The notes beneath the pieces were generated by a model. The model had not been told where the DNA came from and made no database searches. It saw only the letters and a program-made list of their open reading frames with translations. A DNA stretch of 64,000 nucleotides from Enchytraeus crypticus (lineage: Eukaryota > Annelida > Clitellata > Enchytraeida > Enchytraeidae), in assembly GCA_905160935.1 (NCBI GenBank), contig CAJHZI010000197.1, positions 1,075,001 to 1,139,000 on the forward strand, written 5' to 3'. The position numbers were made by a program, and so were the translations under genes. This document shows positions 1-36,061 of the stretch, one piece after another; position 1 is the first letter of the stretch, and every line of letters starts with the position of its first letter.

Positions 1-21
1 AATTACTACATTAGAGGTTAG

Positions 22-182
22 CAACTTTCATAATTGCTATACGAACTATTTCAATTTTGTTTTTTATTCTCACAATGCCCTGTCAACTTTCATAATTTGT
101 TTCTTATTCTCACAATGCCCTGTCAACTTTCATAATTGCTATACGAACTATTTCGATTTTGTTTCTTATTCTCACAATGCCA
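22..182. repeat. Short tandem repeat, about 62-bp unit, three copies
   Basis: Three consecutive units each begin with CAACTTTCATAATT and end with TTCTCACAATGCC. Units one and three are about 60 bp. Unit two (about 84-123) lacks the central CTATACGAACTATTTC part. This is visible directly and contains no coding signal. Confidence 0.8.
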
Positions 183-837
183 CTGTTGCCTCGAGCCTTC
201 CCTCTACGCTATATTGTGACAGTCTTTCTATTGTGGCATACATGTACACCTACCCTAAGTAGCAAATATGTCTCTCCAAATGTTTTCTGTTCTGCCACAT
301 CTACAGCTAGTTCAAACAGAACACACCATCACGGCAACTACATGTAAAATCAATATTCTTTTATCTTCATCTTTACTTATGTGTATGAATATTTCTGTTA
401 AATCTATTAGCAAATCATTCACTTACAACATGCCGTATTCAGTTCTTATGTCTAAATCTTATGGCGCTTATCTACTAAATATTTTTTAAGAACTACTTGT
501 TTACTAAATACTTTACTACATTTGTTCTTATCTAATAAATACTAATAACCTATCTACTAACAATTTCACTACTAACTCTATAGTATACCCTACTTGAGCA
601 TGTTACGAAACTGATTCTAACGTTAATGTTAATAAACCTGACTCTATATAATTGCTAATATTAATGAAAGCATGACACTAAAACTGTTCAAAACTGTCAA
701 TATTAATGAAAGCATGTTAATGAAGCTAATTCTAATAATTAATTTCAAGATAGGTTATAGCCTAGGTTAGAATAATTTCTATTTTTCTTGTCAGCGTCTT
801 TTGCAGTATTACCCAATTTTGTGATAACCTAATCATC
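183..837. other. AT-rich non-coding DNA
   Basis: No supportable gene. Short words recur: CTACTAA-like motifs between about 470 and 600, and the phrase AATATTAATGAAAGCATG twice (about 657 and 699). I see nothing else. Confidence 0.5.
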
Positions 838-839
838 TA

Positions 840-1756
840 CAGGGTGAGTAAAAAAAAAGATTACATTTGCGAAAAGTTTGAATATCTCAGGCTATTGTTA
901 ATATTTTGCAATAAAATTTTTACCAATCACTAAAGGACTAATTTTTGATGGGGTGGCCAATTTTCATCTATTTCGGAACATAGACTGGCCAGTTATGCAA
1001 GCTTGAGCAGAGCAGCCCCCATTTTTTAATGTACTGTAAATATAAATTATATTTAATTTTATTTTTCTCCTGAAAAGGGCCGTTGTAGTGGTTCAGAAAG
1101 AACCAGTTGTATCTGCTAGCATTACTGACTATTCGATATGCTTCCTCCAGCTGCTACGCAGGACTGCAGTCGCTTTCTGAACTCTAGGGCAAATCAGTCT
1201 CCCCCAGATTGATTGTAGCACTTCCTGCAGTTATGTCTTGTATTTAGGCTTCGGCTGGTGTTTCTGATAGAGATGCAGCATGGTTCCCCAGACATAGTAA
1301 TCCAGAGGATTTAGATCAGGAGAGTTTGGAGGCCATTCAGTCTTCTTAATGAAATCCAGGTTTCTCTCGCTGATCCATTCCTGTGCATGACGAGATGCAT
1401 GAGCCGGAGCACCATTCAGCTGAAAGATGAAACCATTTGGTAGAAGAGCATAGCAATCATCAAACAGCTCTGGAAGCAAAGTTTTGACGTAATACTGAGA
1501 GTTCACCTTCACCTTCTCGTCAATGAAGTGCAATCTGCCCTTACGGTTGTAGCAAGCGCAATTTTTTGGTAAAAATTGGGGGTTTCTCTGCTGAAACTTG
1601 CATAACTGGCCAATCTATGTACCAAAATGGATGAAAATTGGCCATCCTATCAGAAATTAGTCCTTTAATAATTGGTGAAAGTTTTATTGGAAACTATTTT
1701 TAATAGCCTGAGATATTGAAACTTTTTTCAGGTGTAATCTTTTTATACTCACCCTG
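840..1756 (-). mobile_element. Internally deleted mariner/maT-like DNA transposon with long TIRs
   Basis: The element begins CAGGGTGAGTA at 840 and ends with its inverse TACTCACCCTG at 1756. A TA dinucleotide lies on both sides (838-839 and 1757-1758), the target-site duplication expected of Tc1/mariner elements. The terminal inverted repeats are unusually long, about 190 bp (840 to about 1030, and about 1565 to 1756), and diverged by scattered substitutions. The interior holds only the C-terminal part of a transposase on the minus strand. At 917 bp the element is shorter than an autonomous mariner (usually about 1.3 kb). It is therefore an internally deleted, non-autonomous copy that could only move with transposase supplied in trans. 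Confidence 0.88.
1231..1533 (-). pseudogene. Mariner/maT-like DD37D transposase, C-terminal fragment
   Basis: About 100 residues remain of a Tc1/mariner-superfamily transposase, the enzyme that cuts and joins transposon ends. The motif FQLNGAPAHAS matches the region of the second catalytic acidic residue, here Asn instead of Asp. WPPNSPDLNPLDYYVWG matches the third, and the Asp in PLDYYVWG lies 37 residues after the Asn, the DD37D spacing of maT-type transposases. The N-terminal DNA-binding domain and first catalytic Asp are missing because the frame runs straight into the terminal inverted repeat. The D-to-N change and the truncation mean it cannot be catalytic. It lies inside the TIR-bounded element 840-1756. 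Confidence 0.85.
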
Positions 1757-1758
1757 TA

Positions 1759-2035
1759 ATTTGTTGATTAATCTAATCTGTGATCATCTAATTTACGATA
1801 CTTTTTATCAGCTAAACGTGTTAATGGATTAAGAATGTCCTTTGATCCAATGATTGATTTGTTGTGTGGCATGGATGAGGTGAAATGTCAATATCACTTT
1901 TAACTCTACTTAGTAGACATATTTACAGATATTTAATTTAAAATATTTGAGTTATATTAGATATATAAAATATTAGAGATATTTAGTAGAGACTTTGAGC
2001 AAGGAAGCAAGAGTGTTCATGGAAATTATTAATTC
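1759..2035. other. AT-rich spacer
   Basis: I see no gene or recognisable element between the mariner-like copy and the LINE composite. Confidence 0.5.
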
Positions 2036-2975
2036 TCTCTCCCTCTCTCAGTGCACTGCCTATAGGCAGGTCCATGGCATATTGTATCTCCACTTATTTC
2101 TAACCTCTACTTTTCGATCCAGCATCCCAAGTCTCATTCTCCTTCTAATCTTCTTTCCTTCCATTTTTCTTCAATTGCTTCTTTTATTAAACCATAATCT
2201 CTGCGAACATGACCCATACCGTCCTTCTTTCAAGTCATTATTACAAAATCATTTTTTTATTTATGCACTTCTTCCCCATTTAGCACTTCTCCGTTCAAAA
2301 TTTTGTTAATCAATTTTGAGCTTCTTCATTCTTCTCCTTAGTAACATTTCGAACGCCTCCACTTTTAGAATTTTCTTTCTTAACGACCGTGTTTCACAGC
2401 CGCACAAGAGCGTGGTCTTCCCTAAAGCTTTCAAATCTTTATCTTCAAGGATTTCTTCAAACTTCTTGTCAGTAGTGCTTTCCTCATACTGAAGGCCTAT
2501 TGTGCTTGCACAATTCCAATTTTTGCTTTTGTTTCACACCTATCTTTTGTTATCTTCTTCTTTTCTTACCTCGTACCTTTTATTGTAATATTGACTCCTC
2601 TTCCTTTCCATTATAATCCCTTTGATTTTCGTGATATTACTTCTCATTCCATACTTTAATGCACTAATGTTCAGGCCATCCACAAGTTTCTATAAACCTC
2701 CGCACACTTGCATCCATTGCTACCATCGTCATTGCGTCTGCGTAAATGCTAAATAGAAGTGGTGACATGCAACACCCGTATCCTACTCCCCATCCTATTC
2801 CTCCTTTTTCGATAACCCCTGTTGAACTCTTAATAATTGCATTTTGGCAATTATCAAAGTTACGTTTCAAATTTTCTGTGTCATCCTTCCCTAAATCCAA
2901 ACTGTGATTTTCGGAACAACATCTCTGATGTTTAATTGATCTTTCTCGAGTCGTCTGTAATGTAAAAATACTCAA
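2036..2975 (-). pseudogene. Non-LTR retrotransposon fragment (RT motif and C-terminus), copy A
   Basis: This is decayed minus-strand coding sequence of a non-LTR retrotransposon. The frame at 2664-2975 contains GYGCCMSPLLFSIYADAM, matching the conserved reverse transcriptase segment usually written GVRQGCxxSPLLFNIY. Downstream on the same strand, in broken frames, are TTLLCGCETRSLRKK, VEAFEMLLRRRM and a GHVRRDYGLI-like stretch, the C-terminal block typical of this LINE group. The catalytic YADD box is not recognisable and the frame has stops. The end near 2036-2060 (GGCAGTGCACTGAGAGAG read on the minus strand) recurs in other copies. The whole fragment is duplicated in inverted orientation at 16795-17731. 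Confidence 0.75.
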
Positions 2976-2981
2976 ACCCTA

Positions 2982-3476
2982 ATCTATTCCGAAGAACTGC
3001 ACTGGTTCCAAGTCTCCGAACGAATAAACTTCAAGATAGCTTCCTTGACCTTCAAAAGTTTCAATTATGGTATACCATACTATCTATCTGATCTTTTATC
3101 AATCTATCAACCTTCTCGTAGTCTTCGTTCCTCTAGTAAAAACCTTCTCACTGCACCGAACATTAAATCTGCCATGTGCAGGTGATCCTTCATGTTTTCT
3201 GCTCCGTCAATATGGAACTCTCTGCCACAAGATCTTCGATCTTGTAATTGTATTGGTACTTTCCTTGGTAAGCTAAAACCCCATTTCTTTCCGCCATAGA
3301 TCTAAATTTTGACCCGCTTGTCTTGGATCTTGGACTTGCACTGTTTTGATCTCGCTTTCTCTTGTGGTCTCTGTGTACTCAGTTGTTATCGTGTGGTGCT
3401 TTGGCGCCTGTTTGTGTAGAGTCTGCAAGAAACGTCCCTGACATTGCCTTATGGCGAGTAACCGGACGATAAATTC

Positions 3477-3511
<35 letters not shown>
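2982..3511 (+). pseudogene. L2-like LINE 3' end (RT C-terminus and 3' tail), copy A
   Basis: Reading the plus strand from about 2988 gives EELHWFQVSERINFKIASL, then GIPSYLSDLLSIYQPSR and later SIWNSLPQDLRS. This is the C-terminal order of CR1/L2-type non-LTR retrotransposon polyproteins (LHW..V..RI.FKI, then P.YL..L, then WNSLP). Stops and a frameshift interrupt it. The 3' part holds ACGTCCCTGACATTGCC and ends in a (TTGA)n tail of about eight units at 3480-3511, typical of L2-group 3' ends. It abuts the opposite-strand LINE fragment 2036-2975, and the pair is duplicated inverted at 16278-17731. Confidence 0.8.
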
Positions 3512-3512
<1 letters not shown>

Positions 3513-6500
3513 CGAGTCTGTTAGTGTTCTTATTCAGATTAGATTATTTAGATTATTTCGTACAATATTTAGCTTATTGTTCTGTAGTCCGAACATTCCA
3601 CTGCGTTGGTATAAATACTGATCTGGTAAAGTCCTCTGGCCATATACATGTACTGCTATTGCATATATATACTCCCTTGAGTAATTTCACTAGCCTTTTG
3701 CAATGTTTCTCCAGAATTCTCTTATCAATTTTAGAAATTTTGCTGTGTCATCAATTCCTGCTGCTTCTTCTTTATTAATTATTAACTCCTACGTGATAAA
3801 AGTGAGATTATTTTTGAAGACCCTAGTCGTGCAGAGATGATAATGTTACTCATTATAATCGTTCAAGTCGCATGTGTGCTAACTAAGCCCCAGATAAATA
3901 TTGCATGAGTTAGGCTATAGTTTCTCGTAACTAATGACTCCGTCCTGACTCGACATTTCCTCTCATTTGAATTCCGCTGACTATTTGTCCCTTTCCAACA
4001 ACTTTAATATTTAATGGGAAGCCTCTTCAATATCGTCCAAGCTAACTGTCAGCACACTTGAACGTAGAAGCGATATTGATTTCTGCCCATAGCGTTATTT
4101 AACAGAGTAATTATCATGATCTTAATTGCTCTTATCTGTGTATACCGATTGGACGGCCGAGTCGCTAGCATACTTGCCTGCAATGCATGAGATCATATAG
4201 TATCCTTGTGTCTGATAGTATCCTTGTGCTATTTTACCAGGCCTTATATTAATTTATAACTTCTAATCTTTTGGATAAGCGAAAAATATGTTAACAGATA
4301 AATGCACAAGATTCATCAATTTCAACTGAAATTAATATTATTAGCCAATTATTGTCATTCGCAAATGCTTAATTTATAAGCAATTAAATCTGAAAGAAAG
4401 TTAAACTACATGTAGTGTGCATCGAATAAATCTAATGCAAGCAAGCTATATTTTTGCTGCGAATGAAATTATTTACTCTGCTAAAGATGACAACAGTCCT
4501 TCACTGCTATTTCCGACTGACAATGTTATTCCATATGGTATTGTCAAAGCTCTTTATCCCACGTTCCACTAAAGTTAAGCTTCATATGGAGATTGATTAC
4601 CCCACTGCTCTCTCACTCTCTCCCTTTAGTCTTTTAGTGGCTCGACCGACTCTTCACTCAACAATCTCACAGGATCTAAGTCCCGACTGAGTCAGTGCGG
4701 ATATCTGTATCGCGGTAACTAAGCATCTTTGTTGTTATTGGAACATTCTTGTGTGCAATTGGTTTGAATATTCAATGAAGAACTATGTTTGATATTAAAC
4801 TCCGGCACTGAAGGTATATTAAGAACTGCTATATCGGAGGATGAAAATAATATGTTTTAGCGTTTCATTAAAACTAGTAAGAGTACAATGATGCCCTCAA
4901 TGTTTGAAGTAGCCGACAGTTTTTTATTTGTCAGATCATGACATTTAAACAAATACATTGCATGTAGTAAGAGGACAGGCCCGTCACTGATTCACTCTCC
5001 AATGTCGACGATCAAGAACTCTAAAGATATATTATGCTTAGTTTCGAATCCCTTTTTTAAGCGAAATTTATAATAAAGCTCTGTCGATCCTAACATCAGG
5101 ATTCTCTTGATTATTACTGGGAGAACGATTCCTGTTGAAATATACGAATCGCATTATTATTATGTTGTCCGGGGTCACGAAGCATAACCTACGGGCAAAT
5201 TGATACGCTTCTATTATCCTCAACTGAGCGTTCTGGTATTCCTTGTCTAACCCCATCTCGTATCTTTTACTGCAGAGTTCGCCGTATCCTCGATCGAGTC
5301 TGCACTTGGAATAACTGAGAGAGTGACCCCCAACTCAACGTTAGGTCGTCTATCATCAAAGTAATGCTCGAATAAAAATGTATATTTTATTCCTCTGCTT
5401 GAATGTCAAGTAAGAGGTAATATTAGTTTCTCTTCCTTTACGAAAGTAAAAGAAGACAATCTAATTTTTATAAAAGTTATTCTTGAATAAGAATAAAAAT
5501 AGTAGTAAAATATCGATAGATGAAACATTAAAATTTTTCAATTATTGTTAAGCTAAAACGTTGGTCTAACATAAGTGTAACTAGTGAAACTAAGTTAGTG
5601 TGCTTAGCTCAGCAAATTCTTATAATACAATTTTGATGAGAAATATAAATTTATTAAATTTAGTATTTTATGTCGATCCGTCCAGTTTTGTTCAGAGAAA
5701 TTTTTCTAAAGTAGAATTATCTCTATTTGTATAGTTCGTCTGAATGGACTGAATTGTATCATAAATGAAGAGAATTACAAAAATATTTGAATAGATCTTT
5801 TAGTAGTTTCAAAATAAATATTGTTAAATTTTCTTAATTTTTTCCTATTTATTTCCAATCAGGCAAAATATCATGCGAATTATGTAAAACGTTTTAAATG
5901 TAATTTATTTATGAAGTTCTTAAAGTTATTCTATGTTGGTCTCTAAATATTTTTTTATCTCTAAGTGCTGCTTTAGACGAGAAATAACGCGGAAATATAT
6001 ACTTTCAACAATTGAAGCTAAACTATTAACCGTCTCGTCTGCATGCAGCGCGTGTTCATGAGGGGTCGAGACCTCAGGTTATGTTACATGGTCAGAATCT
6101 CTGAATGGTCCATTTCAATGCAAATCATTGATAACCTACGAGCGTGGTGACGGCAGAATTTCTACCTGACGGCAAGCAGAAGTCGCTACAAGAATTGATG
6201 GAGAAAGCAATATGTACTAGCTAACGCCATTAGCAACGACTATGATGACTCAATATGAAACGAGAAATAGACGTAGACTCAGTGGAATAAATCGATAGCA
6301 AGAAAATGCGCCTAACATTAGACGCATGATTAACTTGAGATACTGACAAATAATAAATAGAATCTAATGTGGTTTCTCTTTGATTTTCATTATTCGTTCT
6401 GGAAGCTACTTAGCAATATCTACACTATATTGAGTTATACAGTATGTTGCAAGCATTTTAATGTAAAACGCCAGTTCAAAAACTAAATAACGTCTTATTA

Positions 6501-6934
6501 ATTTTATAAATAAGACGTTAAGAAATGTAACGTAATTTAATTTTATTAACAACGTCTTTACGTTATTAATAAAATAAAATAAGTTTTGAAAATTAAAATT
6601 GAATCTTCGAGAACAGCAGTATTAGCACCGACTCCAGGAAGACAGAAGATGATAATTGAGATGAAAATAGTTTTTAATCCTCTAAGCATACTAATTATAT
6701 TGTTTACACCCAATGGTCGTGTAACACCGTCATACTCAGGGTAGCTCTTAGCTCTTATAAATAATGTCCTAACATTTTTGGTTTGTGAAAAAGGCGTTGC
6801 AAGTTAAAATTATCAATCCGAAGTTAAGCTTTTCAATATTAATATTAATCTACAAAAATTATAAATGCTCTTTTATTTAAAAGACCAATGCAGAGTTTAA
6901 AAAATTACTAACCTATATTGGATTATGTTGTCAG
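3512..6934. other. Non-coding; probable intron or upstream DNA of the iGluR-like gene
   Basis: No exon is supportable over 3.4 kb. A 62-codon minus-strand frame at 5068-5256 matches nothing I recognise. A perfect 12-bp inverted repeat, TAACGTCTTATT / AATAAGACGTTA, sits at 6488-6499 and 6509-6520. Because the first visible iGluR exon begins inside the S1 segment, the earlier exons (signal peptide and any amino-terminal domain) must lie to the left of the window or be too diverged for me to see. Confidence 0.4.
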
Positions 6935-7141
6935 GTGGAGCCGTATGTGATGATTGATCGTGCCTCCACTAATCTCACAACAGGTGACGACCGTTATATC
7001 GGATTCATCCCGGATCTGATGGATAAGATTTCCAGCGCGCTCGGGTTTCGCTACGAGTTCTACGCTGTGTCTGACGGTAGCTATGGATACAGGAGAGCCG
7101 GTGGACGCTGGAATGGAATGGTGGGCGAACTTCTTAGCGGG
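6935..7141 (+). CDS. Ionotropic glutamate receptor-like, internal exon (ligand-binding S1, first part)
   Basis: This 207-nt exon (69 codons, phase 0 at both ends) encodes the start of the bilobed ligand-binding domain. The acceptor TTGTCAG precedes 6935 and the donor GTAAGT follows 7141. The protein opens VEPYVMIDR, the EEPYVM signature at the start of S1, which includes the binding-site tyrosine equivalent to GluA2 Tyr450. GFIPDLMDKISSALGF and RWNGMVGELL follow, both diagnostic of AMPA/kainate-type receptors. It reads in frame into the exon at 12742, as in normal receptors (GELLSG then NADIAAGP). Upstream exons are not visible. Family assignment is secure. The AMPA/kainate/delta subtype is not, although wording is closest to kainate/AMPA receptors. 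Confidence 0.93.
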
Positions 7142-7159
7142 GTAAGTTGTAAGACTAAG

Positions 7160-7190
7160 TCTCTTCAGTGCACTGCCTAGGCGCAGGTTC
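7160..7190 (-). repeat. LINE 3'-end remnant next to the splice donor
   Basis: The minus strand reads CCTGCGCCTAGGCAGTGCACTGAAGAG, closely matching the 3' end of the LINE fragments at 2036-2060 and 17700-17731 (CTGCCTATAGGCAGTGCACTGAGAGAG). It begins about 20 nt inside the intron. It is short, so the assignment is tentative. Confidence 0.45.
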
Positions 7191-10100
7191 AAGGTACATA
7201 TTGATACTCAAAGTTTCTTTCTCGCTCCATAAGAGCACTCCTTAGATCAACAATTTAATCCATTCACAAAGTATATGCCTTATCCATTCCTTATGTAGCC
7301 AATAGCTTGGAAAAAGTATGACTTCCGAGGTGGTTTCCCGTTGCCTTTCTCAGTTAGATGGATTAATTACCATTTAATCCTGGGGAAAATATTTCATGGT
7401 GAGGTGGGTCCCCACTTTATATCCTCAGCTCCTGCCTTAGTCGCCTCTTACGCACAGCAGATTGTTTGCGATTGCCCTATTATACATTGCTCCAACCACA
7501 CCCGAGCACAACTCTGGGGAAGACTAAGTAATGAATAATACGTAAGGCAGTTTTGTATTTGTTTCTTAATACCTTCATTCAAAGGGTCAGCCAATGTAAA
7601 CGTTAGGACTTATTTGAATTTATTGTAGCATTGCCGAGATACAGTTCAAAGCGTGAGTATCCTTTGTCACTTCGTTATTCCATTTAGTCCTAACAATGAA
7701 CATATTAGGACTAAATTAATGTAAGTCAGTGAAGACTACTAGTGGGTCTGCCAGACTGATTGACATACATTTAAATATATGGTTTCGTTAGCCCATTTTG
7801 CCTGGTTTATCCTTATCTTTTACAGTCCAGAAATTATAGAAATTTATGAATCCATCTTCAATGGATAATGTTATTACATGTATTAGAGAACTGCTTGAGA
7901 TAATGAGCGTGATCACTGGATAAGCCGAAAGATTTACATGCTGATAATTGCAATCCTGCTAATCTCACAGTTGAATGATTGCTTGAAGCAATCGCGTATT
8001 TGTTGCATTAGATGCAGCCGCCGATCTCACGTCAATTTTCTGCAGCTCTTCCGTTCTGTATGACGCGTCTGTATTATCTAACAGCAGATCGATACAACCT
8101 CATTTTGCCAGATTAACAATGCTCTCAGCAGTGCTCTAACATTTAGACCTTTAAGAATACATTCATTGTTGTACAAATTTATCTCTATTTTAGCATCTGA
8201 AATACTACTATGGTATTTCAATGCTACTGTAAATCCTGCAGTATACGTGAGCTTGAATTAGTTTTGTAACCGCTGTTACACTGGTAACATGACGTAGCAT
8301 GACGTAAATTGTACAAATGCTTCATAGAATCATAGCTGGCCTTCTGGCTTTACTTGACTGTGATGGTTCGTTTGGCACGTGCTAAATGACTCTCACTCTT
8401 TTAAGAAGCTGAAGAGCTAATATTTTGCGGCTGTGTTCGACTTCAACTTCATATGGCTTGGGTTGTAAACTTATTAGCAGTCTCTTCATCTTTCATTCAG
8501 CGAATTGCAGATTGAACCCGAAGGAAGCTATTTCAGTGGGACGATTGACTTTCACACCCACAGCTTCCATAGCTCGTGCAGTCTCTGTGTTGTCAGCTTG
8601 GTATTAGTCATTGGATACATGAGTTCAGTTTTTTATACCTGGCGTAGCCTAAGCTTAAGTTAGATCTCAATCCCATAGATATAAAGTTGATGGCTTTCTT
8701 CAATGACGGTTATCAGAGAATCGTGTGAGAAAACAGGTACTTGCCTTTCTGATCCGGAGAAATGTTCGTGGAGGAACTCAGGAGGTTTTCAGATATCGGC
8801 CTAGCTTTACAGCTAAGTGAAAATTCTTGACTTAGAAAACTGAGAATGGACGCTTAATGCATCAACAGGGAATCGAAAAAAAGTCACGCCAAAATGCAGT
8901 ATCATTAGTCATTTTAAAGTATTTATTATTATATCGTAATGTCTTCAAATTAATTGCATGCCTAAGTATTATTCGCACAGCATTACCGCCTCCACACGCT
9001 TTGAAAGACTCTATTAATCCAATCATAAGCTTTAAAATCACCATCTCATAGGCATAAAGTAATTCTAATAAAAATTTCATATATGCCTAGTTCTAGTTTA
9101 CAAAATATAAAATTCCATTTTTATAGAAAATATATTTCATGTAGTAATTCAATTTGTAATATTAAAATTTAAAAGTCTATTGTTAATGTACAGGTTTCTC
9201 AAGAGTTCTTCGTCAACTATATTAAATCACCTCGTGTCGCAATAAGAAATCGGGTGCTTTGATGTGTTTTCCAATTGTAATCTACCTTAGATTTAAGACA
9301 TTCTGCTGTTGAAAAAATAATATAAGAAATACTATATACTGTACTTCCATTGCATGCTCTCTTAAACAATATTTTGCTTCTAATATTGAGCCATTTTCAC
9401 TCGCTAGAACATGCGACCATGAACTGGAATTCAATTCACAGAAATCCTCGAGAGCATTAGCACATTAATGGCTGCATGATATTGCAAAGACATTGCGCTT
9501 ACTTTATTATCACTTCTTATGACCATCATTTCCAATAGAACGTATGGGATCACGCAAATACAGAAACTCTACTGGAAGTTGTCATCGACCCTGTGAAATA
9601 TATATGTTAAAGCAAGAAGAGCTAAACCTACTGTAATTGCTCATCTGGAATGACGAATTAGTAGGATCCTGATAAGTTTTCAAATTTATAATTAATGTGA
9701 CCAGGGCTGTCATTTGAAACAGCATTTAAATCTCCATAATTCCTGAACAGTGAATTCATAGTAAGTTTTGACTAAAATATAAGAACCTGGACCTGTAAGA
9801 AATTTTTTAACTTCGGCATACATGTACGTTGCTTTGAACATCGTTTTGGAAGAATGGATTCGTAGTGGTGTGTCCTGCAGGGACGTCCCTTATATTAACC
9901 TTAGATGAGAAAAAGGAAATAAAACTTCATTATTATTTATTATTTCATTAATTTTACTTAAATTTGCAAGGTTTCGATTGATTATTGTGCAGAAATCCAT
10001 GATAATGATGGCTTCAACAAACGTTTACTTCTCGGTATATTTCATCGTTAAATGCTATTTCGTGGATTTCATCTCCACTAGATTTCTTGTGAAACCTTGA

Positions 10101-11449
10101 ACTCGTGCTTTTGTCGTTAAGCCTTATGGCCTTGTCGTGATTCTAGCTTTTTAACCTAGACTGTAACCAAGCTTTGTAAAAGAAGTGTCTACAGGAAAGC
10201 AATAAAGAGACAGAGACAATTCTATCATTATTGCCACTTCATTAAGCAGAATCCTCTCGTAGCACTGGCAGTGGGCAGTGCACTACGAGAGATAGCCTAT
10301 GATGAATAGTTCAAGCCAGTTTCGTTTCTCAATGATTTGAAAAGTAGCCTGGCAGGAATTTAAACCTAACATATACTGATCCGTAATCTCAAACTGTACC
10401 GATCATGCTACAAGCTCAATCAATTATTAAGTTCTTAATTGCGCAGAGCTTCTCTTCTTCAGAAAGCCTTTCCGTCATCAATATACTGCGTTTAGCTTCG
10501 CATTTATTAAAAGAAGGTCCACATAATCACTGATATTTTTGATCAATTGATCATATTTTTCTAGTATACTGACTAGGGGCTGGTCTATGATATTTTGCCT
10601 CCTCCATTTTTCTCTAGCATCTGCTTTATCTAATAAATTTGTACGCATTCTAATGAAGTCTTCCAATAATCCTATGCTCGCCTTTCTTATTGCTTTCTCG
10701 ACCACATTCTTCTAATCCTTACGTTTGAGTAAACCATTTCCCTCACAGTGTGTCTTTTGTAGTTTGTTTTCTTACTTTTTAATTGATCCATACAACCACT
10801 CTGTATAATTTCGTCAAAATGTTTTATTATCATATTTAGTTTTGTGGTAATTATTAACTATGTATGTTTACAATTACGCAGTTATTACAGATTTACCCAT
10901 TGTTCTCATATATTTTCAACGCATTCAATTCCCTTACAGATTTCATCATTAAAGTCGATATTTCGAAGTTGTGTTAAAAGAAGTTCACACTGAACTTTAA
11001 AATAATTTGACCTTGAGAATTGCTTCAGGTCTCTGTCACGTTATCAAATGCTAATTTTCCTTTCTCTGTGTTTTGTTCACTCGACTCTCGCATCCATTTT
11101 CTATATACTCTCGTCTGCTAAAGTCAGCCCTCCGGTGACAGTAATGCTCGTACTGGAGCGAGTGCAACTTAAAGTGCTTTCACTGCCCGCTGACCTCTTG
11201 CAGCGGTTTCTGTTGCTCTCATTTTATTTTAATGCTTCGAGCCAGGAGACCTGACCGACCATTTAACGAGAGATCCATATATTAGCAGATTCTCTCTACT
11301 TCCTCCATCACTGGCGTGGACTTAGATTTCTCCAGAATGCTCATGAGACCTTCATCCTCTGATCCTACTCTCTCTTCATTAAAACTTTAGACTGATGTCA
11401 TATATTATATTAAATTCTAAAAGTCTGCTGTTGTATCGTTTGGGATAGG

Positions 11450-11895
11450 CCTGTGGATGTGTAATTATGCTTGGATGTATCGTTATATGTATGAATGTAT
11501 CGTTATGTATATGGATGTTTGGTTACAAGTGTGGTTATATCGTTACATGTGTGGCTGTCTTATAATGAGTGTGGATGTATTGTCATGAGTGTGGATGTAT
11601 CATGAGTGTGGATGTATCGTGTGTGTGGATGTATCATGATTGTGGATGTATCATGAGTGCGGATGTATTATGAGTGTGGATCTATCATGAGTGTGAATGT
11701 ATCACGAGTGTGGATGTATCATGAGTGTGAATGTACATGAGTGTGGATGTATCATGAGTGTGGATGTATCATGAGTGTGGATGTATCAAGAGTGTGAATG
11801 TATCACTAGTGCGGATGTATCACGAGTGCGGATGTATCATGAGTGTGAATGTATCATGAGTGTGGATGCATCATGAGTGTGTATGTATTGTGTGC
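11450..11895. repeat. 17-bp minisatellite in the iGluR-like intron
   Basis: The unit ATGAGTGTGGATGTATC recurs about 20 times with substitutions and a few partial units. The left side (11450-11580) is more degenerate, with GTTATATGTATGAATGTATC-type variants. It lies about 0.85 kb upstream of the terminal iGluR exon. There are no unique spacers, so it is a simple tandem array. Confidence 0.85.
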
Positions 11896-12741
11896 GTGAG
11901 TTCCTAGAACTCAGTATAACGAGAAATTATTAATGATGAAAATTTAATCACTGTCACTATCCATGAAGAGCACTTCAGCGATCAACAAGTTAATCTCTTC
12001 ACAAGATACTATGCCTTATCCATACTTTAATGTCGCCAATAGATTGAGAATAATTACACATGAATACTTGAGTAAAAGAAGTATGAAAATGTCAGCCATT
12101 GGCTCGGTTAATTGCATAACCGTTAAACTCATTAACTGCAGAAAGTTGATTATAATTATTATCTTTTGTCTTTCCTTCAGATAATTCAATCGTTTCGAAA
12201 AAGTTTAATCCATAACTTAATACAATAGTGTCTGAAATTATTTCTGAGTGTGTGCATGTGAGTGCAAATGTATATCTGAGATAAGTGCCCATGTGCAGTG
12301 TGTATGTGTGTTTATATGGGTGTGTTCCTAGTCGTTCGCCAGCAGTCAGTTAATGGCGCTATAGTCTGCAGTCTGCATTTCAATCAATATTACAAGCTGC
12401 GTTGTCTGTTGTTTCGTCTTAGTCTAAATTAAATTACTTAAATTAATTAAAATAATGAAATTAATTAAATTACATGACAATAACTAATTCGAATCTTGTC
12501 CAAACATACTTCTTATGTATCAGATAACGTGTTGCATCGTTATATATAAGGGATGATAGAGTATTTGATAATTTAATTAAATTAAATACCATGCTTGATA
12601 TACGGTGCGCCTTGTTGGCATCTATCAGGGTTTGGTTGAAGCCACCGTAGTTATATCTTTTGGAGTATTTGAGTTTTAAATTAACCTTAAACTTGTATGT
12701 AGAATAAATTTTCTGCTATTGTTTACATCTATTTCCAACAG

Positions 12742-13422
12742 AATGCAGACATTGCAGCTGGACCCACGATTGCCACAAACGTTCGCAGAGAAGTAGTAGA
12801 TTTCACGGAAGCCTTCATTATCGCTCACGCCACGTTGCTGCTGCGTAAACCACCGCATGGGGCGGAGTTTCGACTGCAGAATATCAGTGACGTCATAGAT
12901 CAATCTGAGATCAAATACGGAACACTATCTACGGGAATCATTCCGAGAACCTTCAAATTCACCAACGATTCCCTCATGAGGACCATGTGGCGCAACATGC
13001 GGCGCTTCGGTGCCTCCGTGTTTACTGAGACCAACGAACAGGGCATTGAGCGAGTCAGACGAGACAAGTATGGCTTTGTTCTGCCCGACACTATTGCCGA
13101 ATATATTTCTCTCAGAAGACCGTGTGAGTTTATTACTGTAGGTAAATTTTTAATAACAATGAGTTATTCGCTAGCCTTGCCGAAGCAGTCGGAGTATTTG
13201 GAGCCGATAAATCGAGTTATCCGGGTGTTGAGGACTAGCGGCTACTTGGATATGCTGAAGCAGCGGTGGTGGGCGGGGCGTAGCGAGTGTAATGGAATAC
13301 GTAGCAGTATGATGTATCGATCTGATTGGTCAGCTTCTTCATCGTCATCACTTACGTCATCATGCTTAACCTTCGTCATAGTCGTAGTAATTTATTTTAA
13401 GTCAGTTTCTCTCTACTATTAA
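12742..13422 (+). CDS. iGluR-like terminal exon: S1 fused directly to S2, no pore
   Basis: One open exon of 226 codons plus TAA. The acceptor TTTCCAACAG ends at 12741, phase 0. Residues 1-37 are the end of S1: NADIAAGPTIATNVRREVVDF, with Arg15 aligned to ligand-carboxylate Arg485 of GluA2, then LLLRKP where M1 normally follows. Residues 38-47 are a linker. Residues 48 onward are S2: ISDVIDQSEIKYGTL, ..NEQGIERV.., DTIAEYISLRRPC, and MLKQRWWAGRSECNG with the two S2 disulfide cysteines. The roughly 150 residues of M1, pore loop and M3 (including SYTANLAAF) are missing, so no channel can form. Other ligand contacts are changed: Thr480 to Ile, Ser654-Thr655 to Ile-Ile, Glu705 to Pro. M4 is replaced by a Ser-rich run and CLTFVIVVVIYF near the end, possibly a GPI signal or short anchor. 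No stops or frameshifts. A pseudogene is possible but the open frame and intact splice sites argue against it. Confidence 0.9.
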   Translation, partial: NADIAAGPTIATNVRREVVDFTEAFIIAHATLLLRKPPHGAEFRLQNISDVIDQSEIKYGTLSTGIIPRTFKFTNDSLMRTMWRNMRRFGASVFTETNEQGIERVRRDKYGFVLPDTIAEYISLRRPCEFITVGKFLITMSYSLALPKQSEYLEPINRVIRVLRTSGYLDMLKQRWWAGRSECNGIRSSMMYRSDWSASSSSSLTSSCLTFVIVVVIYFKSVSLYY

Positions 13423-13432: not shown

Positions 13433-13438
13433 AATAAA
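13433..13438 (+). terminator. Candidate poly(A) signal of the iGluR-like gene
   Basis: AATAAA lies 10 nt after the stop codon, within TTCAATAAAAAAATAAG. It is very close to the stop, so the 3' UTR would be short unless a later signal is used. Confidence 0.5.
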
Positions 13439-13577: not shown

Positions 13578-14789
13578 TCTATCTCTTCTTCACTCTATCC
13601 AAAAGGTTTTGCACGAATGAATTACAAATATCCCTCAAATATGTTCTAAAACTCAACAGCCCAGTTCCAGGATAAACATTAGTCCCGCAGTTCTATACTG
13701 AACTTTGTGCGTTTAAGTTATTGTGCTCAATGATACCATGCGCTTTAGTTAAAGTATTCTATTTAGTTTATCAAGCAGCTTAATATTAAGGTTTCTTAGG
13801 ATTCTTTGAGAATAATTCCGTCTATGAAACTCCTACTGCGCGAAGACGTTTCCAGCCTTATATTAGTTCGCCTCTTAGCGGTAGCAGTGATATTTCAGCT
13901 CAGAAGAAATTAGTCTTCGCCCATCAATTGTTTTTCCTTTTTATTTATTTCTTAAAAATCTCTCTATGCCACGACCGTTACGGCGTCTTCCGGGCTTGAT
14001 AAATACCTTCATGTATATCTGGAGGTGTTTGAGTTTAAGTGTCACAAGTAACTCGAGTTTAACGTCAGTTTCCTATCTAGAATGCACGTCAGTGACAGGT
14101 TGCAGTGACAGGGCGTGCCTTGGAATGGAATCCAGTGTACCTATTGATCTGAATTTCAATAACTCACGGATCATGCTATAGCAGGAGCATACTAACGTAC
14201 ATATGCTAGGCATACATATAGTCTACTTGCATACTTCGACTAAGCATACTTGATCAGTCTAGCAGACCGTAACTCCTTGTATTGTATTCGAAGACAACAA
14301 ACAGTACCAGTTTTCAACTGGCTGAAACTGATGAGTCCCTAATTCTTACATTAATATTAGATCAATGAAGTATTTGAATCGCGCAACTGTTGAACACAGT
14401 AAGACTCTCACTTACGAATCGACTGAATCAAGTAATAATATTTTTAAAACTTTAGAAACATAACTACAAGTTGCAAGCGGTGAAGTGGGACAAGTTGTTT
14501 TGATGCCTTGTGATTGTTTTGCAGATCAAATTTTCATTAGGATTGACCATGTTAAAACTGCTTCCTCAATCCCTTACAGTGGGCTTTTAAGACGTGTTTG
14601 CGGTGTTGATCCAAACCGCCAAGTTGTTAGAATGCGCGACACTTGTTACATTATACAATCGTAGACCTTGAATAAATTAATCGGTAATATAACACGCATT
14701 ATTATGAAATAATCAACTATGTTGACAGTTATCACTTTTAGTATTACAGTTTTAAACCGTTAGGCAATTTAGTTCACTTTCCGCGTAAC
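13439..14789. other. Non-coding DNA downstream of the iGluR-like gene
   Basis: A CT-rich microsatellite at about 13535-13585 (CTCTCTCTAT variants). The rest is AT-rich with no supportable gene. Confidence 0.5.
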
Positions 14790-14921
14790 CAGTCCTGTGG
14801 ATGTCCGAGATTTTACTCTCAGATCAGCGCGGCTGGGAATTGAACCCACGAGAGTTCAATTCACCTCAGAATCTTTATTTAAAATTTAATGACTTTACCA
14901 GCCGCCTCAAACCACTGTGCT
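14790..14921 (-). repeat. Second tRNA-derived SINE-like element (degenerate)
   Basis: The minus strand has GGTTCAATTCC (14836-14846), a good RNA polymerase III B box. About 60 nt upstream on that strand is GTGGTTTGAGGCGGCTGGTA, resembling an A box. The order and spacing resemble a tRNA-derived SINE head. It differs from the main SINE family at 43844. Confidence 0.5.
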
Positions 14922-15246
14922 GTTGTGACATTCAAACATTAAAACATTAACATTAACATCGTCAATAAGTCATTCATTCATTTAGTAGATTAATACTCCG
15001 GGGCTCGGTCCCCTGGTCTCCACACAGATGATACGGGCTTTTGGGACATGCAGATTTAATAAATGAAGGAAACAAACAACGTATTATTTATTTTCCGACC
15101 CACGCGGTTATTTCAATATGGAAATAACAAAGTGCTTGGACAAGTGAGCAGCTTGGATCAGCATACGCCGTTATAGATCAATTACATGAGTCCAGAGTTG
15201 CGGTATGTCGTATTTTTTCCTCAGATTCGATGAGAAATATAAAAAA

Positions 15247-15380: not shown

Positions 15381-16277
15381 TAATACGTCAAGTATAGCCC
15401 ACCTCAATCTTAAGCAATATATATACTCTATGGGTCTAATTTTTACTCCTAGAAAACGTTGCCTACATAAATGATGTCTTAACTTATTCAATATTGATTT
15501 AAAACCATTTGTTCAAATATTAAAATTGTGTACATTTATTTTTATTCAATCTTCATTTCATTCTCAATTTCAGTACAATGTCCATCTTATGCAGTTATCC
15601 TTTATCTCTACTTTAGAGACAATTTTACAACAATTAATGTTACTCCAATGTAGGTTTAGCATGATGCAGTTGGCAGTTACTAGGCCGTGTATTCTGTTGC
15701 ACGGCTAACGACATCGAGGAAGGACCGCCATACGAGAAAGCGACTGAGATACACAATGTACACTCTAACTGAGACTGATTACTGTAGAGTGATTTAGCGA
15801 GATCATAAATCATTGATGCTCGTTCCTCGAATACTCGAAATGTTGCTGTCATGATAATTCCAAAAATTACCTGCTGTCAGCGTTACGCATATAGAGTAGC
15901 ATCCTACTCTGTGTACACTACACATGTAATAACTCAATGTGTAAGAATCACTTCATTCATACGAGCGGTTGAGAGGCATGACAGTAAGGTTCAGTCCTGT
16001 TCTGCGTGTTATTTGACGGCTACCTTGATTTGACTGCTATCTACGTTAGGCTAATTTGTATCATAGGCATAATTTAAAAATACTTAAACTGCAGATATAT
16101 TTATTTTCAAAGATAGCATGAATAAATCATATCCATGTACATTGTAAATGCTTCTACAAGCATTTAAGCATCATCGGAAATGCATCAGACACGCACATAT
16201 CATCAAATACAACCATCGTCATATACCATCATATACAATTATACTCATATTATGAGCATTATCAACTCTTTTAATCA
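15381..16277. other. Non-coding DNA
   Basis: No supportable gene or element. Short ATCAT-rich stretch near 16160-16260. Confidence 0.4.
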
Positions 16278-16790
16278 GTCAATCAATCACTAAGAATTTA
16301 ACGTCCGGTTCCTCGCATTAAGGCAATGTCAGGGACGTCTCTTGCAGACACTACTCAAACAGGCGCCAAAGCACCACACGATGACGACTGAGTACACAGC
16401 GACCACAAGAGAAAGCGAGATCAAAACAGTGCAAGTCCAAGATCCAAAGCAAGCGGGTCAAAATTTAGATCTATGGCGGAAAGAAATGGGGTTTTAGCTT
16501 ACCAAGGAAAGTACCAATACAATTACAAGATCGAAGATCTTGTGGCAGAGAGTTCCATATTGTCGGAGCAGAAAACATGAAGGATCACCTGCACATGGCA
16601 GATTTAATGTTTGGTGCAGTGAGAAGGTTTTTACTAGAGGAACGAAGACTACGAGAAGGTTGATAGATTGATAAAAGATCAGATAGATAGTATGGTATAC
16701 CATAATTGAAACTTTTGAAGGTCAAGGAAGCTATCTTGAAGTTTATTCGTTCGGAGACTTGGAACCAGTGCAGTTCTTCGGAATAGATTA
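16278..16790 (-). pseudogene. L2-like LINE 3' end, copy B (inverted)
   Basis: Reverse complement of the L2-like fragment at 2982-3511. It carries the same LHW..V and WNSLP regions in broken frames, the same 3' UTR and a shorter, degenerate (TTGA)n tail at about 16276-16292. A 69-codon frame differs from its counterpart at a single residue (His-Gln-Thr versus His-Arg-Thr). It abuts the opposite-strand LINE fragment at 16795, exactly as in copy A. Confidence 0.8.
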
Positions 16791-16794
16791 GGGT

Positions 16795-17731
16795 TTGAGT
16801 ATTTTTACATTACAGACGACTCGAGAAAGATCAATTAAACATCAGAGATGTTGTTCCGAAAATCACAGTTTGGATTTAGGGAAGGATGACACAGAAAATT
16901 TGAAACGTAACTTTGATAATTGCCAAAATGCAATTATTAAGAGTTCAACAGGGGTTATCGAAAAAGGAGGAATAGGATGGGGAGTAGGATACGGGTGTTG
17001 CATGTCACCACTTCTATTTAGCATTTACGCAGACGCAATGACGATGGTAGCAATGGATGCAAGTGTGCGGAGGTTTATAGAAACTTGTGGATGGCCTGAA
17101 CATTAGTGCATTAAAGTATGGAATGAGAAGTAATATCACGAAAATCAAAGGGATTATAATGGAAAGGAAGAGGAGTCAATATTACAATAAAAGGTACGAG
17201 GTAAGAAAAGAAGAAGATAACAAAAGATAGGTGTGAAACAAAAGCAAAAATTGGAATTGTGCAAGCACAATAGGCCTTCAGTATGAGGAAAGCACTACTG
17301 ACAAGAAGTTTGAAGAAATCCTTGAAGATAAAGATTTGAAAGCTTTAGGGAAGACCACGCTCTTGTGCGGCTGTGAAACACGGTCGTTAAGAAAGAAAAT
17401 TCTAAAAGTGGAGGCGTTCGAAATGTTACTAAGGAGAAGAATGAAGAAGCTCAAAATTGATTAACAAAATTTTGAACGGAGAAGTGCTAAATTGGGGAAG
17501 AAGTGCATAAATAAAAAAATGATTTTGTAATAATGACTTGAAAGAAGGACGGTATGGGTCATGTTCGCAGAGATTATGGTTTAATAAAAGAAGCAATTGA
17601 AGAAAAATGGAAGGAAAGAAGATTAGAGGAAGAATGAGACTTGGGATGCTGGATCGAAAAGTAAAGGTTAGAAATAAGTGGAGATACAATATGCCATGGA
17701 CCTGCCTATAGGCAGTGCACTGAGAGAGGGA
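16795..17731 (+). pseudogene. Non-LTR retrotransposon fragment (RT motif and C-terminus), copy B (inverted)
   Basis: Inverted copy of 2036-2975. The 103-residue frame at 16795-17106 is identical in protein sequence to its partner and includes GYGCCMSPLLFSIYADAM. Downstream are TTLLCGCETRSLRKK, VEAFEML and the GGCAGTGCACTGAGAGAG end. Sequence on the far sides diverges from copy A immediately (about 2035 and 17731), which marks the edges of the duplicated composite. Confidence 0.78.
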
Positions 17732-28100: not shown

Positions 28101-28295
28101 TCATGACTAGATCTACACTCATCCCTTGTGGGGATGTGATCAGCTGATAGTCTATGACTAGATCTACACTCATCACTTGTGGGGATGTGATCATCAGATA
28201 GATTTATGACTAGATCTAAACGCATCACTTGTGGGGCTTCATCATCTATCTGATACAGTTATGACTAGATCTTACAACATCACCTGTGAACAGTG
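28101..28295. repeat. 53-bp minisatellite, four units, at the left duplication edge
   Basis: Four units start with ATGACTAGATCTACACTCAT or a variant and continue CTTGTGGGGATGTGATCA. The first two are near identical and the last two increasingly diverged. The left end of the long direct repeat (28120) falls inside the first unit. Confidence 0.8.
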
Positions 28296-28514
28296 ATTAA
28301 AGAGGAAATTGAGAACTAGGGGAACGGTCAGAATTTTACGGGCCCCTTATTACTTAGCCTATTAATTATTTAACTTTCAAATTAGGACTGCTCCAAACGA
28401 AATCCGATGACCCAATAGATTTGAGTCATCGGAATTTGGCCATTTGTTTGACGATCTAGAAATAGTTCATTAGTTTGACGATCTAGACGCAAATAACAAT
28501 GTCAGTTTTAGCTG

Positions 28515-28633
28515 CTGGTAACATGTTTTTCCTAACTCGAAAGCGATCTCACTGACGGGGGAGCCCAGGATTTGAACCCCGCACATACTGATCCGCGGTC
28601 GAGTACCTTACCGACGTCACCACTGGCTCCAGC
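28515..28633 (-). repeat. tRNA-derived SINE, with an inverted partial head following
   Basis: The minus strand has the B box GGTTCAAATCC and A-box region; the tail side is at 28515-28545. Immediately after its 5' end, the plus strand restarts the same head (AGCCAGTGGCGATTTCGGTAAG, about 28629-28652), giving a head-to-head inverted pair around CACTGGCTCCAGCCAGTG. GTCGGTAAGATACTTAGAT is then repeated once. Confidence 0.82.
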
Positions 28634-29543
28634 CAGTGGCGATTTCGGTAAGATACTTAGATGTGTCGGTAAGATACTTAGATATGTCATATATGTGTCA
28701 CCTTGTTCTAATACATATTAACCATATTATCTGTTTAGCTATATTAGTATATTAGATTAAGCTATTTAGATTAAGGAATGGAGTGTGACATTAGTGAATT
28801 AGCTTGGCTTGGTTTGACTTTAAAAGACTCGTGTGGCCTAGTTTCTAGTCCTAGTTCTATCGACAAACTAATATGTTCTTAGTGTCTATAGATTACGAGT
28901 TGAAAATCATTAATTCTAGAGTGAGTCAAAGTTGGAAAAGACTAAGAAGTTATACTACAATTAATAAATACACATGTTATAGGACGTATAATCTGTATAA
29001 GTGTGCGCTTAAATCCGATAATTACAGGTACATACGGCTCTAAATCTCGATGACTTGTCTCTTCAACTTCTAGCTATATCATCAAGCTGCCTGAGTAGTA
29101 CAAAGCAAATAAAGCTAAAGGCTCTGACGCCTTCAGATTAATTTCAATACAACGGTCGAGCTTTGTTATAAGTCGCTATCGCTAAGACTGTCTATGTTAA
29201 TCACCGGAAACTGTTGAACATCGTCCCCTGTTGTAAATTCTCAGCACATAGTTGAGTAACTCTCACTCATCTTGTTCACTGATTCATTAACGGCTGACTA
29301 GATCTCTTATACAAAGACTTCTACAATGACAACGATACATACGTTATCAGCAGATATGCATATATTATGCTGTGCAAACGTGTACAGTTTGGTGCACAGT
29401 TGATATACTAGCGATTATAAAAGAGTATGATATCCATTTTATTCTTAGAATAACATGGATATTATGCATCTTGAATTCTGTCCACTGACTGACCAGTTAA
29501 TGTTATTTAGCTGTTAACTGGTATTAATACAGTTTATTTCAAC

Positions 29544-29623
29544 GTTATTGTGAAAATGTGTTCTTACCAAACAACTTCTTGTTTGGTAAGAACACATTTC
29601 CCGGCCTGCTTCTTCACAATAAC
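29544..29623. repeat. Long hairpin: 21-bp perfect arms plus 10-bp outer arms
   Basis: The inner arms 29554-29574 and 29579-29599 are exact reverse complements around a CTTC loop (core TTCTTACCAAACAA). Outer arms GTTATTGTGA (29544-29553) and TCACAATAAC (29614-29623) extend it, with an unpaired CCGGCCTGCTTC-type bulge on one side only. Copy 2 lies at 48072-48151. Confidence 0.9.
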
Positions 29624-31457
29624 TTTAACTTAATTGTAAAGTTTAAAAGCTAATTTAAGCTGCTATTCACAATTGTAAAATTTCCAAATGAAGTAAATTA
29701 GAAATAAATTAACAAATTATAAATAGAATCACAAAAAATACTTTAATAAAAATACTTTGCAGGCATGAAAAATGAAATTGAGCCGCCTATCTATAATGAA
29801 GCAGTTTAACGGCGCTGTTGGAAAACCATAATTTGCTTATTCATATATTTAAATTTTATGTAGCAAGTTCAAAATCTCGCTTAAGAGAGCTATTATCAGT
29901 AAACATATTTTTGTACTGAAAATTCGTTGTACAATACCGATGAGATTGTGGCTCTCTGCCTTTAGTGAAAGTCGAAAGAACGCTAAGTATTATGTTGATT
30001 AAATCAAGTTCGGAAGATCATTGAAGGAATGTTTGGTAATGAGAAAAGCAGAAAGCTTTTTTACTATCAGAACTTTTTACCGATCTGTATCCATGCATCG
30101 AAGTTTCTTGTGTTAGTGCAGCTGTGTGATCATGATGTGAAATCCTTCTTCTTTTCTTGTGAGGTCGAGCTCATGAAGTCCATGGCTTGAGCCGAATGAT
30201 TCTCATTTCACGAAATGCTACAGTGATGTATCTATATTTATAGCTGATCATATTTAGTTATATTTAGATCATATTTATTATAGTTGATCATATTTATAGC
30301 CTCTAAGCATAAACTAATTATTGTATACAATATTAAAACTGCCTATATACGATGTGTATATATGTATAGAAATGGTGTAATCTACAGTAGGTTTCGTCGC
30401 AGTACGAGTATGTTAGATACAAATGGTATCATGGATTAATATATTTAGCATTTTTTCAGCCTGTTTTGTTGTCACAATGTTTACACAAATATACCTGTAT
30501 TCACCAAGATATTTGAATATTCAAGTCCATGCATGATCTCTTGTGATTAAATTAGCAAAACATTTTAAACTGTTTCATTTTTGGACGAAATATCAAATTT
30601 GTCTTCAAACTCCTTCCTCCTAATTCCACAAGTCCACCAGTCAGTCTTTATCCGCAGAATTTCATTTATGCATCTTGGTTTATTGACCCTATACCGTCTA
30701 TACCACTTCCAGCATAAATTAATTCTCTACGCCATTAACTTCCAGTTCCATTCTCTTTCTAATTTCTCTCTAGTAGTCTCTGGTTGCCTCATTTCTTCTT
30801 TAATCTTTAGTTAGAGAAAATTATTAGAGATAGGAATAGAACCCGAAACCAACCCTGAAATCTTAAATTTTGAAACCTGAACCCTGATGCTGGCCGAACT
30901 CGAACTGAATACGAACATTGGCCAAGCCAAACCGAACCGTACTTTCCTTCGCCAGCCATAGGCGAACTAGAATTGAACCTCATACTTTCATTTCGACTAT
31001 TTTTCAAATATTCTCCATAAAATATTAAGGAGAATATTTGGCGTTGTATAATTATAGTGGAGTCAATACAATTATATCATTAGTTTCTGCATACACAAGT
31101 TCTATAGTATCTAGTTTTTATGTAGGCCTATATTTTGTAAGACTCATTGCGATACCAATTTTAAAATTTACTTTAAAATTAACGTTAATTTTAAAACTAA
31201 TGCTACATTAAGCGCAGGTAGGCATATTTCAGATACTGCTACCGATACGACTATATTTTAATTTTGGATTATAAAAAGTATCATAAAAAGTAACTTTAGT
31301 TTAATTATTTATTAACTAATTTCAGTAAAGTCAATAGCTCATATGATAGCCCTGTGTATATCCTATACACAGTGTTGCCTAACTTATCATACACAGAGAT
31401 AATTAATTTTATCAGGTAAACAATAAGATCAAAAAACCCCTATCGAGCCCCTATAAT

Positions 31458-31490
31458 TAAGCCCCTTTGATCTAAAATCAAAGGGGCTTA
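31458..31490. repeat. 14-bp-arm hairpin
   Basis: TAAGCCCCTTTGAT and ATCAAAGGGGCTTA flank a CTAAA loop. Perfect arms. Copy 2 at 49986-50018. Confidence 0.9.
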
Positions 31491-31560
31491 TCTTGAGTTT
31501 TTGACCAATAAATTCTAGGGGAGCAAATGAATCAAAGCGAGGCAGTTGAGAGTTGCATAA

Positions 31561-31590
31561 TGGGCGCAAAGTAAATTTACTTTGCGCCCA
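31561..31590. repeat. 30-bp perfect palindrome
   Basis: TGGGCGCAAAGTAAA is followed directly by its reverse complement with no loop. Copy 2 at 50089-50118. Confidence 0.92.
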
Positions 31591-32124
31591 GTATGACTGG
31601 AAAGATGTCTACAAAGATCCACGCTACCCGATTGTTACATTTGTCCTATTATTCTCATTGTTATAGAAATTTGCATAAACGCTTATACATCTGCAATTCT
31701 GCATGTATGTTCCGCATTCTTTATTAACTTCTACGAAATTGAATATGTTAATTGGGCCGCAATGCAAATCAGGTGATATTACGTGAGGCTATGCTGCTGT
31801 GGTCCTGTAATTAACCGATCCACTAATGCGATGGGAAAGCGACGTGAACCCAGAAAGGAACACTGAATTGTTATTACCCCTAGGGAATTGATCTTCAAAT
31901 TCATCCGCATTCCCTCTTACACAGGCTACATACACGTATATCACCTAAGATCGTTGGATTCCTTTAATTAGATTGCCAGTTGTCACAAGAGGTTTTCTCA
32001 AAAGAATTCTTCACGATTCATATTTCATTTCAGATTATTATCTATTGAAACTCAGTTGAATTGTGCAAAATACAGTCTGGCTGACGGCCATTGTCCAACC
32101 TTTAAGTTAACGATAGAATGAAAG

Positions 32125-35760: not shown

Positions 35761-35774
35761 TCTATAGCCCGTTC

Positions 35775-36002: not shown

Positions 36003-36061
36003 GTATAATAACTACATTAGCTCAACTATGGTTTAGTGCATTGAAGCGGAAATCATATAAA

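Follow-up and report, generated by a model that had tools for sequence, protein, structure and literature searches.

A predicted natural S1S2 protein: a pore-less ionotropic glutamate receptor gene of Enchytraeus crypticus and its family

Gene structure in the window

We analysed a 64,000-nucleotide stretch of Enchytraeus crypticus contig CAJHZI010000197.1 (hereafter the window), which carries a gene related to AMPA/kainate-type ionotropic glutamate receptors (iGluRs). The gene is predicted to encode both lobes of the ligand-binding domain, S1 and S2, with a short linker in the place of the ion pore. The features of the gene, in window coordinates, are as follows:

6935..7141, plus strand: S1 exon (VEPYVM...GELLSG), phase 0 at both ends, PF10613
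7142..12741, plus strand: intron, GT..AG, with no pore exon found inside by tblastn
12742..13422, plus strand: terminal exon, with the S1 end, linker, whole S2, C-terminal tail and stop codon TAA
12853..12882, plus strand: S1-S2 junction PHGAEFRLQN, ten residues occupying the place of M1-pore-M3
13433..13438, plus strand: AATAAA polyadenylation signal, 11 nt 3' of the stop

The splice sites are canonical, with the acceptor ..cag/GTGGAGCCG at 6935, the donor GGG/GTAAGT past 7141 and the acceptor ..CAACAG/AATGCAG at 12742 (slashes mark exon borders). As the original prediction held, the two exons join in phase 0, giving 295 codons and a stop at 13420-13422. S1 ends in LLLRKP at 12852 and S2 starts with ISDV at 12883, with only the ten junction residues between them within a single open exon, and the earlier claim that a pore cannot be spliced in between these positions also stands.

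Both lobes are present and together form one flytrap domain, a feature of the iGluR ligand-binding domain superfamily. The best match of the window protein in the PDB was GluA2 (chain 8i0b_A, E 6.3e-52), which covered query residues 2-261 and ran from S1 into S2. The protein contains the Pfam domains PF10613 and PF00497, and PF00060, the M1-pore-M3 domain, was absent in a Pfam search at E up to 1. Using tblastn with five pore queries, we found no credible pore match in the window, intron included, or in the 30 kb upstream; the best match (E 0.15, at ~35.6 and 54.2 kb) fell inside a duplicated stretch bearing long interspersed nuclear elements (LINEs). In a positive control, three of the five pore queries recovered at least one of two channel exons from the same genome (L023 and L026), and the other two (P0033 and P0040) recovered neither. 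Since the pore is missing, the encoded protein cannot conduct ions, in agreement with the non-channel product originally proposed. The gene model demonstrates a natural S1S2 architecture for the predicted protein, that is, an AMPA/kainate-like iGluR flytrap in which M1-pore-M3 is replaced by a short, near-fixed linker.

Repeats lie on either side of the gene and within it. A 1.46 kb inverted repeat (98.6% identity, 2040-3497 and 16273-17731) flanks the receptor exons on both sides, and one of its copies terminates at a run of TTGA repeats. The intron contains a ~17 bp minisatellite (GTGTGGATGTATCATGA) at 11561-11888.

A family of pore-less relatives

Two protein searches of genome, metagenome and read assemblies gave 61 relatives that we counted as family. 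Six further matches with a precomputed PF00060 (P0033, P0034, P0036, P0037, P0038 and P0040) were not counted. We note that these searches accept only sequences of 0.55-1.75 times the query length, which favours pore-less proteins, and that the second search restricted its scoring to the 7997 candidates with the most shared words. Because of the length filter, the family set alone would not show an absence of pore-bearing close relatives; the six-frame genome searches described below are free of this bias. The relatives are also partly non-independent: P0002 and P0005 represent a single protein, and most of P0054-P0067 lie near P0001. One scan for relatives in viral contigs confirmed none.

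One junction pattern, of the form LLLRKPPxG...DLINQSEIKYGT, was common to 54 of 62 sequences (the 61 relatives and the window gene), and in 50 of these 54 exactly 17 residues separate the S1 end from the QSEIKYGT strand. The eight sequences that did not match comprise three that begin past the junction (P0032, P0039, P0065), three that are pore-less with a variant residue (P0053, P0061, P0064) and two garbled frames (P0066, P0067), and PF00060 is listed for none of them. Retention of the junction in relatives had been set beforehand as a condition of the original prediction, and the 54 sequences bear it out. A glutamine at the splice acceptor stands directly before (K/N)ADxAA in 22 of the 61 relatives and in the window frame, which indicates that the intron before the terminal exon is conserved; in most other relatives the sequence begins further on, and P0001 and P0050 look like spliced sequences.

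The relative P0001 (400 residues) is continuous across two exon borders at which its close relatives still carry unspliced sequence: P0055-P0058 and P0060 stop after the first part of S2, and P0065 begins at the second border. Because it reads through these borders, P0001 appears to derive from a spliced transcript. It contains a hydrophobic stretch near the N-terminus, the flytrap and a hydrophobic end, and the amino-terminal domain (ATD; PF01094) is absent. The call for transcripts in the original prediction would be answered in part by this, through a relative rather than through the window gene itself.

Of the 41 alignment columns with at least 90% conservation in a set of 55 relatives, the window gene matches the family residue in 38, with P>A, L>V and D>E as its three misses. 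Given these retained columns, the gene as read is neither a chance frame nor a decayed copy. A pseudogene, a relic of exon loss or an assembly error is therefore a very remote explanation, and it must also contend with an open frame, good splice sites, a polyadenylation signal and an identical junction in dozens of relatives. In its favour, the gene sits between inverted-repeat copies, the window also holds a large duplication of near-identical sequence, the locus is known from genomic sequence alone, and its first exon was not found. For this exon, we scanned window positions 1-6934 and the 30 kb upstream with a motif for a phase-0 exon ending in an LRIATI-like beta-strand, and no convincing candidate emerged.

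Paralogues in the same genome and origin of pore loss

The host assembly comprises 524 Mb in 802 contigs, to which labels such as C323 refer. A six-frame search with the window protein returned 52 exon matches, and reading of the frames gave at least 10 pore-less genes, in three groups:

Group A: the window gene, C323:694 kb and C734
Group B: C246 (three copies) and C297
Group C, divergent: C323:350 kb (L008, 348885-352355), C370:3.17 Mb (L011, 3166150-3169695) and C102 (L063, 231900-233400)

The groups differ in their pocket residues and in their extensions. Group B retains Arg485, G-S-T at 653-655 and Glu705 (GluA2 numbering) in the three C246 genes and the one C297 gene, three of these four being in the alignment. 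Genes of group C have long low-complexity inserts or C-terminal extensions, and the Arg485 equivalent is missing in two of the three (C102 and C370) in a 31-row alignment. The three C246 genes form a cluster (601001-642258) in which one gene lies on the strand opposite to the other two, and they have canonical glutamate-pocket residues. Comparison of these copies revealed a conserved hydrophobic frame, lacking a clear donor site, that might be the signal-peptide exon of group B. The best PDB match of the C297 protein was GluA2 (E 2.3e-23). Across the terminal exon of a C246 pair, dN was 0.047 and dS 0.170, and the ratio of 0.27 points to purifying selection on this pair.

A group-B protein query gave 16 matches in a six-frame genome search and crossed the junction at nine of the ten pore-less genes; C102 was not recovered by this query. 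At the receptor loci C609, C319, C618, C154 and C557, its match ends by residue 52, where the pore region starts, and at C463 it covers the S2 side only (28-175), in a frame carrying M3.

We considered whether pore-less proteins could act as modulators or assembly partners, as the original prediction allowed, pairing with real iGluR subunits through the dimer face of the ligand-binding domain and damping or retuning them. The genome offers iGluR-like exons on other contigs (e.g. C557, C729, C441, C609), and two contigs, C774 and C463, read with pore sequence. Set against this, P0001 has no ATD, there is no M1-M3 for assembly, and the position of GluA2 L751 separates the family from channels, with L in 2 of 44 family sequences and L or M in all four pore-bearing proteins. 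Of the four dimer-face positions checked, the other three (L483, L748 and N754) vary in the pore-bearing comparison sequences as well as in the family, and their loss carries little weight against pairing, which slightly raises the standing of this rival and lowers that of the best explanation. Overall, the assembly-partner role is one of the less likely readings, and we regard it as improbable.

In a maximum likelihood tree (31 rows, 249 columns, many rows incomplete), group B (ultrafast bootstrap 100) and group C (42) fell with channels, apart from group A (96). Forcing all pore-less genes into a single clade was not rejected (approximately unbiased test, p 0.50), and all of them may descend from a single pore loss rather than several. 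The family has diversified within one genome, where a second group keeps the canonical glutamate-binding residues. The family, these paralogues and the anchor-like C-terminus described below go beyond the original prediction.

Ligand pocket

Pocket positions were compared by aligning GluA2 with 55 of the 61 relatives (P0005 and P0063-P0067 left out). Three sites in the window gene are central to the pocket:

12784..12786, plus strand: Arg at GluA2 Arg485, the carboxylate anchor; R in 48/48 relatives covering the position
12937..12942, plus strand: Ile-Ile at GluA2 Ser654/Thr655; hydrophobic in 54/54 relatives covering the site
13084..13086, plus strand: Pro at GluA2 Glu705; P in 46/52 relatives covering the site

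The six relatives without proline at 705 have F, F, K, R, G and D, and some of their frames are garbled there. At the Thr480 position, all 47 relatives have Tyr, Leu or Phe and the window gene has Ile. Other positions are close to uniform across relatives, including Pro478 (P in 38/39), Tyr732 (Y or F in 47/48) and the two cysteines, Cys718 (kept in 45/47) and Cys773 (45/45).

According to passages of a metazoan census, the amino acid is held by Arg485 together with an acidic residue at 705, and changes at these positions would preclude binding (PMC6307864). Because the acid at 705 is lost while this rule demands both residues, glutamate and glycine are most likely not ligands of group A, including the window gene. 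The group A pocket could still grip a carboxylate. With Arg485 kept, the acid that grips the alpha-amino group lost and hydrophobic residues at the side-chain site, the window protein probably takes a hydrophobic carboxylate as its ligand and not an amino acid.

These replacements bear on the suggestion that the window protein is a glutamate decoy or buffer for synaptic or ambient glutamate. The flytrap fold and Arg485 are retained, as a decoy would need, but the residues at 705, 654, 655 and 480 that hold an amino acid have been replaced in group A, and we now find this part of the original prediction hard to sustain for the window gene. From its kept pocket residues, group B may bind glutamate, and a decoy role may hold for those paralogues.

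C-terminal tail and membrane anchoring

The protein ends in a tail that is a candidate signal for a glycosylphosphatidylinositol (GPI) anchor:

13291..13419, plus strand: 43-residue C-terminal tail with a hydrophobic end (SSSSSLTSSCLTFVIVVVIYFKSVSLYY)

We scored C-termini with a loose heuristic of our own rather than a trained predictor, which asks for a hydrophobic 12-mer ending at most 12 residues from the stop and a small-residue site upstream. This rule was passed by 41 of 44 readable family C-termini, window included, compared with a mean of 10.5 of 44 (maximum 19) when each tail was shuffled over 500 rounds, which keeps composition only. In 19 of the 44, the protein ends at most two residues past the hydrophobic segment. 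None of four pore-bearing proteins passed, as 15 to 30 residues follow their hydrophobic stretch.

The C-termini look like GPI-anchor signals, although by sequence alone a GPI signal and a remnant of M4 are not separable, and a tailless M4 remnant is the main alternative. Under that alternative, the same pore-less binding protein would be tethered by a transmembrane helix left over from M4, or freely secreted. It is in keeping with the strong hydrophobic end of the window tail (best 12-mer mean hydropathy 2.98), with the single long helix at the C-terminal end of the predicted P0001 model, and with P0006 and P0021, which continue past the hydrophobic end. The short distance to the stop in 41 of 44 tails, seen in none of the four pore-bearing proteins, argues against it, and we consider a tether of this kind or free secretion unlikely, though the strongest of the competing explanations.

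The best explanation, and one we hold with moderate confidence, is a GPI-anchored, channel-less Venus-flytrap protein that serves as a surface receptor or captures ligand in the manner of acetylcholine-binding protein. This falls within the class of secreted or surface ligand-binding proteins that the original prediction had named and that fits best here, and both the sequence and the predicted model agree with iGluR flytraps. Such a protein would enter the secretory pathway and, judging from the C-termini, be held by its GPI anchor on the outer cell surface, where its pocket would capture a hydrophobic carboxylate instead of an amino acid. By analogy with acetylcholine-binding protein, its role might tentatively be chemosensory or neuromodulatory.

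Several observations weigh against the GPI-anchored receptor. The search of the 37 kb upstream turned up no signal-peptide-bearing first exon for the window gene, and the gene itself is known here from genomic sequence. P0050 has no N-terminal hydrophobic stretch; P0001 has one, judged by eye, and its predicted model is of low confidence near the N-terminus. Three of the 44 tails (P0006, P0021 and P0053) fail a rule that is already loose, with shuffles that control for composition only. Finally, the dN/dS estimate comes from a group-B pair and not from the window gene.

Other features of the window and assembly

The window also contains a 17.4 kb direct duplication (99.8% identity, 28117-45475 and 46645-64000) with LINE reverse-transcriptase frames, which is either a very recent event or an assembly duplication. 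A search with the LINE reverse transcriptase gave few matches from named organisms (a stork, two turtles and a crayfish) among at least 120, and was uninformative on the taxon. A 116 aa open frame (44688-45038, minus strand; second copy 63213-63563) resembles a terminal exon and gave no Pfam hit up to E 0.1. A DDE_3 transposase fragment lies at 1231-1614 on the minus strand. Elsewhere in the assembly, the mitochondrial contig (C802) carries cox1 (9116-10453), cox3 (11749-12504) and atp6 (14375-14989), all on the plus strand. The placement of cox3 ahead of atp6 and the spacing of about 4 kb from cox1 to atp6 agree with the gene order of annelids and not with that of arthropods, which suggests an annelid. 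In COX1, AGA codons occur at serine positions and AAA codons at lysine positions. A search for the cuticle family PF00379 gave no match, but neither did any control genome, and this negative carries little weight.

Comparison with known systems

The nearest structural counterpart is the GluA2 ligand-binding domain as expressed in laboratory S1S2 constructs (e.g. PDB 1ftk), with which the window protein shares the fold, the short S1-S2 linker, both cysteines and Arg485. It differs in being natural, in the changes of Glu705 to Pro and Ser654/Thr655 to hydrophobic residues, and in its anchor-like tail.

Acetylcholine-binding protein has a Cys-loop fold that is unrelated to the iGluR flytrap, and the window sequence matches iGluR flytraps and not the Cys-loop pentamer. 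In passages describing the mollusc protein, it forms soluble ring-like pentamers, whereas the window protein is a flytrap with a likely membrane anchor (PMC3423370). Schistosoma SmGBP, as described in part of its report, is likewise a receptor-derived flytrap without the signalling part, membrane-associated and surface-exposed; however, it is a metabotropic-type glutamate receptor minus its membrane segment, belongs to an unrelated receptor class and binds glutamate (PMC3206071). On these partial accounts, the two proteins are the nearest analogues, and neither shares the pore-less iGluR architecture. We regard the window protein as an iGluR variant that would function like a receptor-derived binding protein.

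Protostome chemosensory ionotropic receptors (IRs), as portrayed in passages of two studies, share with the family an iGluR origin, ligand-binding domains without glutamate-contacting residues and, mostly, the lack of an ATD (PMC2924276; PMC11939437). Those passages describe the ion channel domain as the best-conserved region of IRs, and the pore-less family lacks it. A stomatopod survey includes a few predicted IRs with Lig_chan-Glu_bd and without Lig_chan (e.g. OratIR40a-2, OratIR09105, OratIR04168 and OratIR11918), and its passages on them are silent on whether they represent genes without a pore or incomplete models (PMC11939437). As far as those passages go, these models count against full novelty.

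Our searches of the open-access literature turned up no account of a pore-less iGluR gene family, with subscription journals mostly outside this scope, in line with the original statement that no named family has such an architecture. The family is conserved and apparently undescribed. Passages of the metazoan census by Ramos-Vicente et al. state that sequences with fewer than four SYTANLAAF residues were dropped (PMC6307864), and passages of the crustacean survey that sequences without its characteristic domains were removed (PMC11939437). Since iGluRs are defined and collected through their pore, surveys of this kind would miss or misinterpret a family that lacks one.

The wider proposal, on which we are evenly divided, is that channel-less iGluR ligand-binding domains with a GPI anchor evolved into a multigene family in one lineage of invertebrates, probably the annelids, as a flytrap counterpart of acetylcholine-binding protein, one branch taking hydrophobic carboxylates in place of amino acids and another glutamate, possibly after one pore loss. 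If true, nature has made and kept the S1S2 construct of crystallographers, and natural flytraps with a new ligand specificity would be available. Much as acetylcholine-binding protein did in the nicotinic field, it would also pose a testable question, namely in what way animals put channel-less receptor clamps to use.
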